Positions 5,879-20,408 of a stretch of 20,408 bases of DNA are shown here, piece after piece (position 1 is the stretch's first letter; each line of letters starts with the position of its first letter). The DNA is taken from positions 5,296 through 25,703 of IMG/VR virus record IMGVR_UViG_3300022602_000378; one strand, written 5' to 3'. Source of the stretch: a virus. Position numbers and translations under genes: made by a program. The notes under the pieces were generated by a model. That model had not been told where the DNA came from. It searched no databases and saw only the letters and a program-made list of their open reading frames with translations.

Positions 5879-7655
5879 AATAAAAAATATAACTCTTCGT
5901 AATTTTATGAGTGTGGGTAATCAAACCCAGGCTGTAGATTTTGATAAAGAACATTTAACTCTTGTACTAGGAGAAAACGTTGACCTTGGTGGCGACGATA
6001 CCGGTTCTCGTAACGGCACAGGTAAGACAACCATGATTAATGCGTTGAGTTACGCATTGTACGGACAAGCACTTACTAATATTCGTAAAGAAAATTTAAT
6101 TAATAAAACAAATACCAAGGGCATGTTGGTTACGGTTGAGTTTGAAAAGAATGGCATTTATTGTCGCATTGAACGTGGACGTAAGCCTAATATTTTAAAA
6201 TTGTTTGTAAACGACCAACAGTTAAAAACTGATGAAGTTGAAGATGATGCTCAAGGTGACAGTAGAGAAACACAAAAAGCTATTGAGCAAATGTTAGAAA
6301 TGTCACATACTATGTTCAAACATCTTGTGGCATTGAATACCTATACCGAGCCGTTCTTAAGTATGAAGGCCGCTGATCAACGAGAAGTAATTGAACAGTT
6401 GTTAGGTATTACGTTGTTAAGTGAAAAGGCTGAAAATTTAAAAGGCCTTGTCAAAGAAACAAAAGATCTTATACAAGCAGAAACATTAAAAATTGAAGCC
6501 ATTAAAACTGCTAATGAAAATGTACAAAAAAGTATCGACAGTTTAGGTATAAAAAGTTCTGCCTGGGAAACACAAAAAGATAGAGACATTGAAAATCTAG
6601 GTAAGGCAATGATGCAATTGGAAAGTGTAGATATTGAAAAAGAAATACAACTTCATGCTGAACTTAAAATTTGGGAAGATAATAACGTTGCCTTACGCAG
6701 TCTTAATAAAGAAAAAGCAACACTAGAGTCTGCCGCCATACAGGGCGAAAAGACCTTGAACAAATATTTAAACGAGCTTACCAAGTTAAGTAATAAACAA
6801 TGCCCTGCATGTGAACAGGATCTTCATGATCATAAGCATGAAGAAATGACAACAGTTGCTACAAACAATGTTACTGAAGCTACAACTTATCTAGAAAAAC
6901 TCAAAACAGATCACAATAAAATTGTTGCTGAATTATTAGCAATAGGTGAACAACCACACAGGCCACAAACATTTTACGATACTGAAGCAGAAGCATTAGG
7001 ACATAAAAATAATCTTGGAAATTTAGAAAAACAATTAACAAATAAAATTGATGAAAAAAATCCTTACGAGGAACAAATTGAAGAACTAAAGAAAACTGCT
7101 ATTCAAGAAATTTCTTGGGATAATATAAACGAGCTTACAAAACTTAAAGAACATCAAGAATTTTTATATAAGTTGTTAACTAACAAAGACTCATTTATTC
7201 GTAAGAAAATTATTGATCAAAATTTAACATACTTAAACAAACGCCTTGGATATTATATTGATAAGTTAGGATTACCACATCGTGTTGTTTTCCAAAATGA
7301 CTTAAATGTAGAAATTACACAGTTAGGACAAGATTTAGATTTTGATAATTTGTCGCGTGGCGAACGTAACAGATTAATTTTAAGTTTGAGTTTTGCTTTT
7401 AGAAACGTTTGGGAAGGCTTATATCAAAATATTAATCTATTGTTTATTGACGAGCTTGTAGATGCTGGTATGGATAGTGCCGGTGTTGAAAGTGCGTTGG
7501 CTGTCCTGAAAAAAATGGCCAGAGAACAAAATAAGAATATATACCTGATAAGTCACAAGGATGAATTGCAAGGTCGTGTAAACAATGTTTTAAGAGTAAT
7601 TAAAGAACATGGTTTTACCAGTTATAGTAACGATATAGATTATGTTGAAGCATAA
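5871..7655 (+). CDS. 46: Recombination endonuclease subunit gp46 (Rad50/SbcC-like)
   Basis: This is the SMC-like ATPase partner of gp47. Every landmark is visible: Walker A GSRNGTGKT at ~45-53, a long coiled coil broken by the zinc hook C311-P-A-C314, a second coiled coil, the ABC signature LSRGERN starting at residue 494, Walker B ending FIDE at 525-528, and the H-loop histidine 562 in LISHKDE. At 594 residues it is slightly longer than T4 gp46 (560). The start ATG lies inside the end of the glycosyltransferase gene, so translation probably depends on reading through that gene. The last 14 bases overlap the next small gene. All catalytic residues are present, so the complex should be active despite the insertion upstream. 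Confidence 0.95.
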   Translation: MFKIKNITLRNFMSVGNQTQAVDFDKEHLTLVLGENVDLGGDDTGSRNGTGKTTMINALSYALYGQALTNIRKENLINKTNTKGMLVTVEFEKNGIYCRIERGRKPNILKLFVNDQQLKTDEVEDDAQGDSRETQKAIEQMLEMSHTMFKHLVALNTYTEPFLSMKAADQREVIEQLLGITLLSEKAENLKGLVKETKDLIQAETLKIEAIKTANENVQKSIDSLGIKSSAWETQKDRDIENLGKAMMQLESVDIEKEIQLHAELKIWEDNNVALRSLNKEKATLESAAIQGEKTLNKYLNELTKLSNKQCPACEQDLHDHKHEEMTTVATNNVTEATTYLEKLKTDHNKIVAELLAIGEQPHRPQTFYDTEAEALGHKNNLGNLEKQLTNKIDEKNPYEEQIEELKKTAIQEISWDNINELTKLKEHQEFLYKLLTNKDSFIRKKIIDQNLTYLNKRLGYYIDKLGLPHRVVFQNDLNVEITQLGQDLDFDNLSRGERNRLILSLSFAFRNVWEGLYQNINLLFIDELVDAGMDSAGVESALAVLKKMAREQNKNIYLISHKDELQGRVNNVLRVIKEHGFTSYSNDIDYVEA

Positions 7656-7962
7656 AGAATTAGACATTTACAAAGAATTACACAGTAAATTCATGCTTGA
7701 TATTTTAGAATATCATAATAAGCATTGTGTTCATGTTGAACAACCGACAAATAGAACAACTGTTAATCTTAGAAGTCAGTTGCGCGAACTCAGAAAACTC
7801 ACCAAGCAGATGGCTATACAACTTACAGCAACCTACAACGAAGAACGAGAAAACTTTAAAACACGTAAAGAATTAATTAAACAAAAAGGCAGATCAGGCG
7901 ACATTTATCGAGAGCGTATAAGAGAAAAAATTAAGACCAGGGAGACAAAGTCCGATAAGTAA
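7642..7962 (+). CDS. Small basic hypothetical protein overlapping gp46
   Basis: A 106-residue frame starts 14 bases before the gp46 stop in another frame. The protein is mostly charged and predicted helical, with strongly basic stretches after residue 60 (RSQLRELRKLTKQM and the C-terminal Arg/Lys run), which would suit nucleic-acid or protein binding. There is one histidine/cysteine cluster, HNKHCVH, around residues 26-32. I do not recognise the family. Compact overlap with gp46 and co-direction suggest it is a real gene translated by coupling, made at the same time as the recombination proteins. No clear ribosome site is seen before the ATG. A small transcription or recombination accessory role is possible, but nothing in the sequence proves it. 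Confidence 0.65.
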   Translation: MLKHKELDIYKELHSKFMLDILEYHNKHCVHVEQPTNRTTVNLRSQLRELRKLTKQMAIQLTATYNEERENFKTRKELIKQKGRSGDIYRERIREKIKTRETKSDK

Positions 7963-7965
7963 GTG

Positions 7966-8397
7966 ATGACATGGACATTTCAAAATACTGTTATCAACGA
8001 ATTACCTAAAGATTGTGTTGGATTTGTGTACCTAATTACAAATAATGTAACCGGAAGAAAATACATAGGCAAAAAGTTAGCAAAATTTAGTAAAACGACC
8101 TACAAGACTGTAAAGTTAAAGAACGGCACCAAAAAGAAAAAGAAAATTCGTAGCAAAATTGATAGTAATTGGCAAGATTATTGGTCTAGTTCAGATGAAC
8201 TTAAAAAAGATATAGTGGCTCTCGGACAGGAAAATTTTACAAGAGAAATATTATATTACTGTAAAAGTAAAGCAGAATGTAGTTACATTGAGGCCCGTGA
8301 ACAATTTGACCGCAAAGTACTTGAATCTACAGACTACTATAATGGACAAATTTCAGTCCGTGTACATGGCTCACATATTTTAAAAAACAAAATATGA
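7966..8397 (+). CDS. GIY-YIG superfamily nuclease-like protein
   Basis: The N-terminal region has GFVYLITNNVTGRKYIGKK at about residues 19-37, which fits the GIY-YIG pattern of a G-x-x-Y strand, a short N/G turn and a YIG strand. Further down are the W-x-D-Y-W-x-S-S segment, the L-G-x-E-N-F-x-R-E-I-L strand, and a Glu-bearing helix (YIEAREQFDRK) that could supply the catalytic glutamate. A Lys-rich insertion (NGTKKKKKIRSK) separates the two halves. Such nucleases in phages act as homing endonucleases or as DNA-processing enzymes. The protein has only the nuclease domain and no obvious separate DNA-binding module. GTG at 7963 and ATG at 7966 are adjacent in-frame starts; I prefer ATG. The stop overlaps the next start (ATGA). 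It is followed by one more gene and then by the structured non-coding region. Confidence 0.75.
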   Translation: MTWTFQNTVINELPKDCVGFVYLITNNVTGRKYIGKKLAKFSKTTYKTVKLKNGTKKKKKIRSKIDSNWQDYWSSSDELKKDIVALGQENFTREILYYCKSKAECSYIEAREQFDRKVLESTDYYNGQISVRVHGSHILKNKI

Positions 8398-8672
8398 CAA
8401 AAATTAATTGGAATAGAGAACCAACCAGCAGTGTAATGAACTCTGAGTATTGGACAAATCCAAAAACAGGGTTTGACAAAGGTTGGCACGATAGGCTCAA
8501 ACAAAAACAAGAAAAAAAGCAAAGATTATTAAATCAAAAGATAGATTTAGGCATACACGAAGATCACGATTTAGATATAGTCAAGCTCAACTCAGGCCCA
8601 CACGTAGGAAAGCTCATCTGTATTACATGTAATGACAAATTCATTAGATGGCTTCCAAAAGGCATATTTTAA
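8394..8672 (+). CDS. Small hypothetical protein with CxxC and KFIRWLP ending
   Basis: The 92-residue product starts on the stop codon of the nuclease gene (ATGA overlap), so it is likely coupled. The N-terminal part has aromatic residues and NP-x-x-G-F-x-x-G-W. The middle is a Lys/Gln-rich helix. The C-terminal ~25 residues read HVGKLICITCNDKFIRWLPK, with a CxxC pair and a tryptophan. Short phage proteins ending in a G-K-L-x-C-x-x-C-x-K-F-I-x-W-L module occur in many T4-like genomes without a known function; that recollection is not checked. Only one CxxC pair is present, so a zinc site would need a second partner or other ligands such as the nearby histidines. It is the last gene of the rightward early block. 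Confidence 0.65.
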   Translation: MTKINWNREPTSSVMNSEYWTNPKTGFDKGWHDRLKQKQEKKQRLLNQKIDLGIHEDHDLDIVKLNSGPHVGKLICITCNDKFIRWLPKGIF

Positions 8673-8677
8673 CTAAC

Positions 8678-9057
8678 ACCGAAGGTTGGCGGGCCAGTTT
8701 GTAATACCGCTGTGGAAAAACCGGGGAATAACCGGACACGTAACATATTGATGCACTCCCGTCGGTAAATCTGACTATCCTGAAAAATTGGAAGCGAGTC
8801 TGAGGGTACGAACCATACGCCCAACGCATTGATATAGTATGAATGTTAGCATACGAAAAACCGTGCTATAAAAACTTAAACACTAGGAACGAGGTTTAAG
8901 ACGCTTTTTAAGCGAGTCAATGTAGGTTGGGAAAGATTAGAGCCCATTAGCATAACGGTAAAAACACCTATTTCCAATGTCTCGGCTGTGATAACTCACA
9001 TGAAGACAAAAGACGGAACCGAGCAAAACGGTTCCGTCTGACTGAAACAATCTACAT
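8678..9057 (+). ncRNA. Candidate structured RNA of unknown family
   Basis: The 507 bases from 8673 to 9179 have no credible gene, unusual in this compact genome, and hold many complementary segments. Helices seen directly: ACCGA 8678-8682 with TCGGT 8762-8766, stacked near CGGG 8690-8693 with CCCG 8758-8761; GTATG 8837-8841 with CATAC 8850-8854; CTTAAAC 8875-8881 with GTTTAAG 8894-8900; CGCTT 8902-8906 with AAGCG 8910-8914; a long-range 10-pair helix 8920-8929 with 9048-9057 (one G-U); inside it TGTCT 8978-8982 with AGACA 9004-9008, and an 11-pair perfect hairpin 9011-9021 with 9029-9039. The strand is inferred from G-U tolerance and flanking genes. I do not recognise tRNA, tmRNA, RNase P or group I intron cores. 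It may be a novel RNA or a long structured 3' UTR. Confidence 0.4.
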
Positions 9058-9095
9058 GAATTTAAATGCTTCGCATTAATCATATAATTAAAAAA

Positions 9096-9138
9096 TGCTC
9101 TGAGTAAAACGAAAGAGCAAATGAGCTTTAGCTCATTT
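9096..9138 (+). terminator. Paired hairpins, likely terminator of the early block
   Basis: TGCTCT 9096-9101 pairs with AGAGCA 9114-9119, and AAATGAGC 9119-9126 pairs perfectly with GCTCATTT 9131-9138 across a TTTA loop. The second hairpin ends in a short T run, as in a weak intrinsic terminator. It sits six bases before a late promoter, which fits insulation of the late transcript from the early one. Confidence 0.5.
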
Positions 9139-9143
9139 CTGTA

Positions 9144-9151
9144 TATAAATA
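9144..9151 (+). promoter_or_regulatory. T4-type late promoter TATAAATA
   Basis: This is a perfect match to the late box recognised by gp55-programmed polymerase, 28 bases before the start codon at 9180. gp55 is encoded in the same window, which supports the reading. Confidence 0.8.
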
Positions 9152-9179
9152 AGTTATCAATTACTTAGGATATGCCTTT

Positions 9180-10121
9180 ATGCGTCTCAATGATATTATC
9201 GAATCAAAACAGCTAGATGAATTAAACCTAGGAGGAGTTAGTCCCAGTGGACAAACTAGCGCAAAACCTCAAGGAGTGTTGGGTAAACTTAAATTAGGAG
9301 CTCAACAGTACTTAAACCCTAACTCTAATGTAAGAGCTAGAGCAAAAGGTATTTCTAGCGTGGCCAAGGAGGCCAATGCTCTAATGACGCAATATCAAGA
9401 GTGGGTTGGACGTACCTACCCAGATCAAGGAACAACAAAAGAAAATTTAACCGCTTGGTTAACACAGCAAAGATTACCTGTTACAGGACGAGTAGATGCT
9501 TTATTAAAAAGTATCAATCCACCTGCTCCTCAAGCACAACCAGCGGCACCAGCTAGTGCTACTGCTACTACACCAACAGCTCAACCCGCCGCTCCTGCAG
9601 CAACTCCGCCAGCACAGCCAAATCAACAAGCATTAAAAGGCAGATTACGAGCAGGTCAAGGCCTAGGACAACAAACACCTGGTGGATTTGGCAACTATGT
9701 GGCTGGTAGTGGACAAAGAATACAAGGTGCTAATCCCAATGGCTCACCTAGAGTTGTTAATATTCAACGTGAAGCTCAAGGAGGAGGAACAGTAACTCCT
9801 ATTGATAATAAAATGGTTAGCCAAATTATATCAGCGGCAGTTGCTGAAAGAAATCGAGCAGGCGGTGGCGCACAACCAGCTTCTGCTATTCCTCAAGGAC
9901 AACCAAATACAGGTACAGGTAGTTCCTCATCAAGATCAAGTTCTATGCCTACTGCTCAACTAACAGTAGGCGGTGTTGTGAATTTTTATAAGCGTTTAAA
10001 TGCTGCCGGAAGACAACAGTTAAGAGCAGAATTAGATAAAATTGATAAAACACCTGTACCAGAATCAACAGTTGATGTTGACAGTGTAGGCTACAGTCGT
10101 TTTTTAGAAATTAAACTTTAA
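9180..10121 (+). CDS. Ala/Pro/Gln-rich hypothetical late protein
   Basis: The 313-residue product comes directly after a consensus late promoter, so it is probably a virion or assembly protein. The N-terminus MRLNDIIESKQLDELNLGGV could be a short targeting helix and includes an I-x-E-S site resembling the gp21 cleavage consensus. Residues ~35-110 look folded and helical, including YQEWVGRTYPDQG. Residues ~112-155 are an Ala/Pro/Gln linker, followed by Gly/Gln/Ser-rich sequence to about residue 260. A small helical C-terminal domain begins near LTVGGVVNFYKRLNAAGRQQ and ends YSRFLEIKL. I do not recognise the family. Its stop overlaps the stop of the opposite-strand gene by four bases, so the two late transcripts converge here without an obvious terminator. 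Confidence 0.75.
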   Translation: MRLNDIIESKQLDELNLGGVSPSGQTSAKPQGVLGKLKLGAQQYLNPNSNVRARAKGISSVAKEANALMTQYQEWVGRTYPDQGTTKENLTAWLTQQRLPVTGRVDALLKSINPPAPQAQPAAPASATATTPTAQPAAPAATPPAQPNQQALKGRLRAGQGLGQQTPGGFGNYVAGSGQRIQGANPNGSPRVVNIQREAQGGGTVTPIDNKMVSQIISAAVAERNRAGGGAQPASAIPQGQPNTGTGSSSSRSSSMPTAQLTVGGVVNFYKRLNAAGRQQLRAELDKIDKTPVPESTVDVDSVGYSRFLEIKL

Positions 10122-19695: not shown

Positions 19696-20408
19696 ATGGG
19701 ACGTCCAATTAAAGCAAGATATTTTTTACGCGGTGGTAAAGTACCATCACAAATAAGTTTTAACGAAGGATGGATTGGTCTTTCCGGTAGTGTTACTACA
19801 CCAGGAGCATGGTATCCACAAGGAACATATATTACGTTCCCACAAGGTCAGTTAGGATCTGCTAGTACAACAGCAAAAGCAACTCTAACAATTAGCACTT
19901 CAACAGGTGCTGTTACTGGCATTACAATGACCAACGTAGGTTCTGGTTATAATTCTACTGTAACAAATTACACAATTACACAACCTGCCACTGTTACAAG
20001 TACTGTTAACGGATCAGGTCCAGTTACTGCTACAAATACATTTACAGTTGGAAGCGCGGTAGGTATTCAAATAGGTATGTTAATATCTGGTGCCCAAACT
20101 GGATACAATGGACACGTTCAAGCAGTTAATGGTAATGTTATCACATCTACTGTTAATAACCTTGGAATATGGACTAACGCATCAAACTTAACATTTAGTT
20201 CAACAGGTTCAGGTGCTGTATTATATTTTAATGCTGTAACTCCTGCTGACACAAGCCTCATTGCAGCTACAGCATACATTTCTGGTGATACACAAGGCCG
20301 TGCAGCCGCCATTATTAAACAAGAAGGTAGTCATCGTTATCTAGTGGAAGCTGATGTTAGCGGTACACTAAGACAAGGTATTTGTAAATTAGCAAGTACT
20401 TCTACACT
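19696..20408 (+). CDS. Putative virion structural protein, Gly/Thr/Ser-rich (incomplete)
   Basis: A frame with ATG at 19696 and a TAAGGAGA site nine bases upstream runs off the right edge, at least 237 residues. The start MGRPIKARYF is followed by a beta-rich, Thr/Ser/Gly-heavy sequence with VTGITMTNVGSGYNSTV, a pattern seen in repeat modules of phage virion proteins, and then IIKQEGSHRYLVEAD and TLRQGICKLAS near the visible end. Proteins with a K-Q-x-G-S-x-R-Y-x-V segment followed by G-x-C-x-L are common in T4-like phages of aquatic hosts, where they are annotated as structural; that is from memory. It takes the place of T4 gene 24 but does not resemble gp24. A head decoration or vertex role is possible, not shown. 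Confidence 0.7.
   Translation, partial: MGRPIKARYFLRGGKVPSQISFNEGWIGLSGSVTTPGAWYPQGTYITFPQGQLGSASTTAKATLTISTSTGAVTGITMTNVGSGYNSTVTNYTITQPATVTSTVNGSGPVTATNTFTVGSAVGIQIGMLISGAQTGYNGHVQAVNGNVITSTVNNLGIWTNASNLTFSSTGSGAVLYFNAVTPADTSLIAATAYISGDTQGRAAAIIKQEGSHRYLVEADVSGTLRQGICKLASTST

Follow-up and report, generated by a model that had tools for sequence, protein, structure and literature searches.

A candidate family of large pseudoknotted non-coding RNAs with twin heptamers in aquatic phages

Why should a phage with tightly packed genes keep half a kilobase that encodes no protein? The question is raised by a stretch of viral DNA of 20,408 nucleotides (the window), part of a 25.7-kb IMG/VR virus record that encodes a T4-type capsid protein (Gp23), gp46/47-like proteins and a late sigma factor, and whose capsid and gp46 have their nearest counterparts in jumbo phages, e.g. 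Phosso, PBECO4 and PA5oct. A first-pass annotation had described an ORF-free region of about 507 bases, tight gene packing elsewhere and a perfect 11-pair hairpin. All three observations hold: the region 8673-9179 runs from the stop codon that ends ORF 8394-8672 to the start codon of ORF 9180-10121, the genes around it overlap or almost touch within a compact genome, and the hairpin could be located (P16, Table 1). Since most indels among 72 homologues would shift a reading frame (801 of 980 have lengths not divisible by three), and since stop-free stretches in the homologues are about as long as in shuffled sequences, we consider the region non-coding. The best antisense frame (8644-8829) is open in only 31 of these 72 homologues and was rejected. 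The folding energy has a z-score of -4.4, and none of 100 shuffles reached a value that low. The annotated span does contain a structured RNA, but its conserved part is narrower, consisting of a core followed by variable 3' hairpins that extend to about position 9138.

Through the small protein encoded next to the region, three IMG/VR loci were identified that share 83-87% DNA identity over the region, the protein itself being 54-60% identical. Scanning IMG/VR with the 16-mer ACACTAGGAACGAGGT yielded 112 stretches; 116 of the loci collected by then matched an iterated nhmmer profile, and after further scans with AGGTTCCGTCTGACT and a gapped motif the set was extended at E <= 1e-3. The pattern scans and profile searches together found at least 247 homologous loci in IMG/VR, many of them only distantly similar, and the family is frequent in freshwater and marine phage contigs. 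Among cultured phages no homologue was found by blastn; nhmmer --max found none in the near relatives HTVC111P, HTVC202P, HTVC026P and DSL-LC06, nor near gp46 of the cultured jumbo phages Phosso and PA5oct. The latter two have large non-coding gaps near gp46 (7410-8425 in Phosso; 7867-8531 in PA5oct), in which no similarity to the RNA was found. DSL-LC06 has a 750-nt unannotated gap (572-1328) with AGGCA repeats and a GGTTCC..TTGAC stretch; the latter is faintly similar and possibly represents a very diverged relative. About 85,000 bacterial and archaeal genomes (GTDB) were searched with one exact 16-mer only, which a diverged cellular copy could escape; none of the 11 matches was supported by the profile, and we judged them to be chance occurrences. 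Two further sets of matches were discarded: blastn links of locus L366 to Dinoroseobacter, Roseobacter and Caulobacter phages go back to a short palindrome of the variable loop of P12 (ATACGGT..AGCGTATA), and the Staphylococcus phage matches of locus L342 comprise 28-32 nt within coding genes.

Covariation was tested twice against a null that keeps the tree, with 83 sequences and then with 194 distinct sequences. In the smaller set the highest-ranking pairs were Watson-Crick. In the larger set 12 pairs scored above all 15 simulated alignments, and 11 of them are Watson-Crick base pairs, distributed over eight helices (5' half: 8722-8724 with 8732-8734, 8748-8832, 8753-8827, 8757-8797, 8763-8773 and 8806-8820; 3' half: 8876-8899 and 8920-8921 with 8936-8937). 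From the covarying pairs and the consensus we drew an 82-pair structure, which was compared with an alignment of 72 diverged copies that had not been fitted to it. In the pseudoknotted structure 90.9% of the cells are paired, compared to 34-39% when the partners are slid; double changes occur in 57 of the 82 pairs and in 709 cells (42-134 in the slid control), and the covariation score is 0.323 (0.046-0.070 in the slid control). As the structure was partly drawn from the same sequences, the slid control favours it; the tree null is free of that weakness. Within the helices 478 cells are G-U and 92 are A-C, therefore the RNA is on the + strand. The weakly supported parts are P12 and the closing pairs of P15; P1 is paired in 89% of the cells and has double changes in only 2 of its 6 pairs. 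Homologues with compensatory changes, the test that the first-pass annotation had named for its proposed new phage RNA, have thus been found, and we regard a structured RNA at this locus as practically certain.

Is this RNA a known one? The annotation had seen no resemblance to tRNA, tmRNA, RNase P or group I introns, and indeed neither Rfam nor ARAGORN recognised any of these. The Rfam search it had called for returned no family matching the RNA in the window. With Rfam 15 (cmscan, permissive thresholds) it was also unmatched in ten relatives, diverged types included, and the covariance models of ROOL, GOLLD and OLE had no match in the window or in diverged relatives. Likewise, there was no Rfam match to RNase P RNA or to a group I or group II intron core, and the locus lies between intact ORFs in both the window and its relatives. 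ARAGORN called no tRNA or tmRNA in the window (relaxed settings give many random matches), and no tRNA genes were present in the window or the ten relatives scanned. A tRNA-like reading of TTAGCATAACGGTA...TTTCCAA (8947-8977) was abandoned as the resemblance is not kept in relatives; a scan with a 14-mer from this stretch gave 72 stretches, three of which are homologues. Searches of a library of open-access full texts gave no description of the RNA, although such absence is weak evidence. The family is absent from Rfam 15 and seems to be undescribed.

The RNA is carried by at least three phage groups that are unlike one another: jumbo phages of the T4 superfamily, pelagiphage-related phages of about 30 kb, and a third group. 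In the T4-like group (196 of the loci listed) it comes after a SegE-like GIY-YIG gene, either directly or separated from it by a small CxxC gene, and the core starts at the upstream stop codon or a few bases from it (median about 5 nt). The second group (33 of the loci listed) has terminases 51-55% like those of the pelagiphages HTVC111P, HTVC202P and HTVC026P and the freshwater phage DSL-LC06, and quite different genes precede the RNA. Other neighbour genes again are found in the third group (L115, L364, L370). In the RNA tree the second group is scattered in several clades, some of them weakly supported, among the T4-like copies, which points to repeated movement of the RNA between phage groups. 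As phage genomes are tightly packed, yet dissimilar phages keep these approximately 400 non-coding bases, the bases must pay for themselves. The first-pass annotation had considered a role in the early-to-late switch. This is unlikely, because the ~30-kb phages and the third group carry the RNA without the T4-like early/late layout; in many relatives the downstream genes are on the opposite strand. The late promoter it had placed near the region does exist: it is of the T4 late type (TATAAATA), is the sole + strand copy within the window and was assigned to the downstream gene.

Table 1. Features of the RNA locus (window coordinates)
Feature	Position	Strand	Remarks
SegE-like GIY-YIG nuclease gene	7963-8397	+	Frequent neighbour of the RNA; PF19835
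Small CxxC protein gene	8394-8672	+	Frequently separates the nuclease from the RNA in T4-like loci
AGGC, loosely conserved	8660-8663	+	About 10 nt before the core; overlaps last codons of ORF 8394-8672
Structured RNA core, ~390 nt	8673-9061	+	Homologous in 197 full-length relatives
P1, 5' strand (AGGUUG)	8683-8688	+	Pairs with 9048-9053 (CAAUCU); closes the whole RNA
P2 hairpin (8689-8692/8707-8710)	8689-8710	+	100% paired; GC-to-CG and AU swaps
P3 (8712-8714/8737-8739) enclosing P4 (8721-8724/8732-8735)	8712-8739	+	Covarying pairs 8722-8724/8732-8734 in P4
P5, 10 pairs (8745-8754/8826-8835)	8745-8835	+	Encloses P6, P7, P8 and P9
P10 hairpin	8837-8854	+	Double changes in 5 of 5 pairs
P11 hairpin, conserved loop ACUAGGAACGAG	8875-8900	+	First 3'-half element common to all variants
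Pseudoknot core	8919-8970	+	PK 8919-8921/8936-8938 crosses P13 (8923-8927/8966-8970) and P14 (8928-8931/8943-8946)
R1 heptamer (ACATGAA)	8998-9004	+	Direct repeat of R2
P16, 11-pair hairpin	9011-9039	+	Between R1 and R2; right arm GGUUCCGUCUGAC almost invariant
P1, 3' strand	9048-9053	+	R2 follows immediately
R2 heptamer (ACATGAA)	9054-9060	+	Outside P1; concerted with R1
Three sequence-variable 3' hairpins	9065-9138	+	9065-9077, 9096-9119, 9119-9138
TATAAATA, T4-late-type promoter	9144-9151	+	Promoter of next gene; outside the RNA

The RNA falls into two parts, a 5' half with P2-P10 and a 3' half, starting at about position 8867, with P11, the pseudoknot core, R1, P16 and R2. A second RNA type (L366, L422, L326, L364, L370, L115 and others, including the third phage group) retains the 3' half but has another, shorter domain in place of the 5' half. 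Comparison of these variants shows that the 5' domain closed by P1 is replaceable and the 3' domain with the pseudoknot universal. Many relatives of both main groups have, 3' of R2 and before the last hairpin, a hairpin with a GAGCG-NA-GCGAAA signature (tandem G-A). The last hairpin in the window (9119-9138) may be a terminator; a strict terminator scan called none on the + strand. Upstream of the core, 97 of 143 relatives have GGC between -24 and -3, compared to 25% of control windows. More generally, the 120 nt that precede the RNA are enriched in AGGC/GGCA motifs (in the second group 2.9 per 120 nt versus a background of 0.7, with a maximum of six copies), and in the T4-like group they start inside the upstream gene. 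A sigma-70-like promoter is convincing only in relative L211, with weak enrichment in the second group. A short upstream ORF ending at the start of the RNA in the second group is inconsistent among relatives and was rejected.

The most unusual feature is the pair of heptamers. Over their full length R1 and R2 match exactly in 229 of 239 loci, and still 13 different heptamers occur across the loci (e.g. ACATAAA, ACATGAT, ACAGAAA and GCATAAT, besides ACATGAA in the window). Six of the seven positions agree in at least 187 of 188 sequences, the remaining one agrees in 176 of 182, and the coupling between 9002 and 9058 (G-G, A-A, C-C) is as strong as that in the helices. A column-by-column check revealed no column of the RNA that complements R1 or R2. 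Complements of the cognate heptamer are not above non-cognate ones in the 5' half or in the 150 nt on either side, nor are they commoner over whole loci. Because R1 and R2 change together and their complement is absent inside the RNA, it is most likely, as far as sequences can tell, that both face one shared partner in trans. R1 may also equal R2 through recombination copying one heptamer onto the other; pairing of up to four bases, or a protein partner, would give the same pattern. We also considered the heptamer as a match to a codon or anticodon loop, in which the invariant A could face U33 and C2 would need G37; this idea was dropped by reasoning only.

Our best guess is a two-site docking or decoy RNA, the decoy being one guess among several. 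The RNA would be transcribed as a stable molecule and would act in trans as a scaffold, showing a single-stranded heptamer twice to one partner. This partner would be an RNA or an RNA-binding protein, differing between phages or hosts, and the RNA would either dock on it or sequester it. We see about an even chance that the locus represents a new family of large, pseudoknotted non-coding RNAs that has spread horizontally among several aquatic phage groups and acts in trans as a scaffold with twin heptamers. The mechanism itself, i.e. a stable RNA showing its heptamer twice for docking or as a decoy, is a tentative proposal, and it is just as tentatively that we suggest a new class of trans-acting phage RNAs, whose co-evolving twin heptamers are read by one fast-changing phage or host molecule. 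If true, this would be the first instance of an external partner keeping two distant RNA segments identical because both face it, in an RNA that has spread to unrelated phages.

A cage-forming RNA and a ribozyme are the main rivals. According to the former, the RNA would assemble with itself like ROOL or GOLLD, forming a homo-oligomer or cage via kissing loops and A-minor contacts that serves as container or platform. The RNA is large, pseudoknotted and phage-borne and has A-rich conserved joining segments, which would suit such an assembly, and its plan of a universal 3' half with an exchangeable 5' half has also been reported for GOLLD (PMC12286853). However, ROOL, GOLLD and OLE show no match in sequence or covariance, the tRNAs that frequently accompany ROOL and GOLLD are missing from the window and the relatives scanned, and homo-oligomeric base pairing leaves the identity of R1 and R2 unexplained, since it would require the RNA to contain their complement. 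We therefore consider this reading unlikely, if the most serious competitor. The second rival is a ribozyme or intron-like RNA, in which R2, and perhaps R1, would be a substrate or product site for the pseudoknotted domain that P1 closes. R2 does lie directly after the closing helix, and a pseudoknotted core and almost invariant unpaired segments are present; yet group I, group II, RNase P and self-cleaving ribozyme models of Rfam remained unmatched even with permissive filters, the RNA sits between genes and interrupts none, and an internal guide complementary to R1 or R2 was not found, so that we regard a ribozyme as improbable.

The close junction of the T4-like core with the upstream stop codon would fit an element of the 3' UTR that acts in cis to stabilise the operon before it, or to control it. 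To this we attach a similarly small probability: in the other groups the upstream genes are different, sometimes on the opposite strand, or end hundreds of bases away, and the size and conservation of the RNA would be unusual for such elements. Perhaps slightly less probable still is that the RNA serves the neighbouring SegE-like nuclease as guide or partner. Every intact T4-like locus has the nuclease adjoining the RNA, and so do, downstream of the RNA, 7 of 25 intact loci of the second group; nuclease and RNA share one strand throughout. In the second group the nuclease has been gained two or more times, one of them from inside the RNA-associated clade. But PF19835 is above the cut-off in only 4 of 24 records tested from the second and third groups, it is absent from RNA-bearing contigs of 28.9-31.9 kb and 40-58 kb (which may be fragments), and cultured phages have the nuclease without a 400-nt gap beside it. 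The obligate nuclease linkage of an RNA-guided nuclease RNA is thus not seen, the GIY-YIG gene being absent from most records of the second and third groups. Because it is missing there and occurs in cultured phages without the RNA, the nuclease appears to be a frequent but dispensable companion, and a hitch-hiking homing nuclease profiting from a conserved neighbouring site would account for the association equally well. The nuclease gene of the window falls into PHROG 447, labelled 'NAD synthetase'; the label looks like an annotation error propagated among phage records. Finally, a structured single-stranded DNA element, e.g. an origin or packaging site, is suggested by direct repeats around a strong hairpin, which resemble iteron/relaxase sites, and is very improbable as G-U exceeds A-C five to one in the helices, as expected of a + strand RNA and not of DNA.

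Few large ornate RNAs of unknown role exist (OLE, ROOL, GOLLD), and the family described here adds one that comes with an alignment, a covariation-supported structure model and a specific handle, the two concerted heptamers; with the help of the alternative 5' domain and of the movements between phage groups, roles could be assigned to its parts. Among known RNAs, ROOL and GOLLD come closest; both are large, occur in phages, have no assigned role and are frequently located near tRNA islands (PMC12286853). GOLLD resembles the RNA in being a large ornate phage RNA with pseudoknots, a constant 3' and a less conserved 5' region and an origin in lake and marine samples (PMC12286853). It differs in its length (>800 nt, compared to about 390 here) and gives no covariance match, and our RNA has no tRNA island but twin concerted heptamers. 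ROOL is likewise a large phage or prophage RNA of elaborate secondary structure (PMC12286853), whereas our RNA gives no covariance match to it, was not found in a prophage and has another architecture. Freshwater-2 and other motifs from comparative genomics also derive from metagenomic DNA, and a freshwater-2 copy occurs in the same T4-like phage (19616-19698 of the window, + strand, 73.7 bits versus a gathering threshold of 49.9), immediately preceding an ORF that starts at 19696; freshwater-2 is an element of 84 positions before a gene and is dissimilar to our RNA. Decoy RNAs of the CsrB/RsmZ type present the same short recognition site several times. By analogy, the RNA described here would also act by repeating a short recognition site; their sites are GGA motifs, whereas here the repeated site itself varies between relatives.
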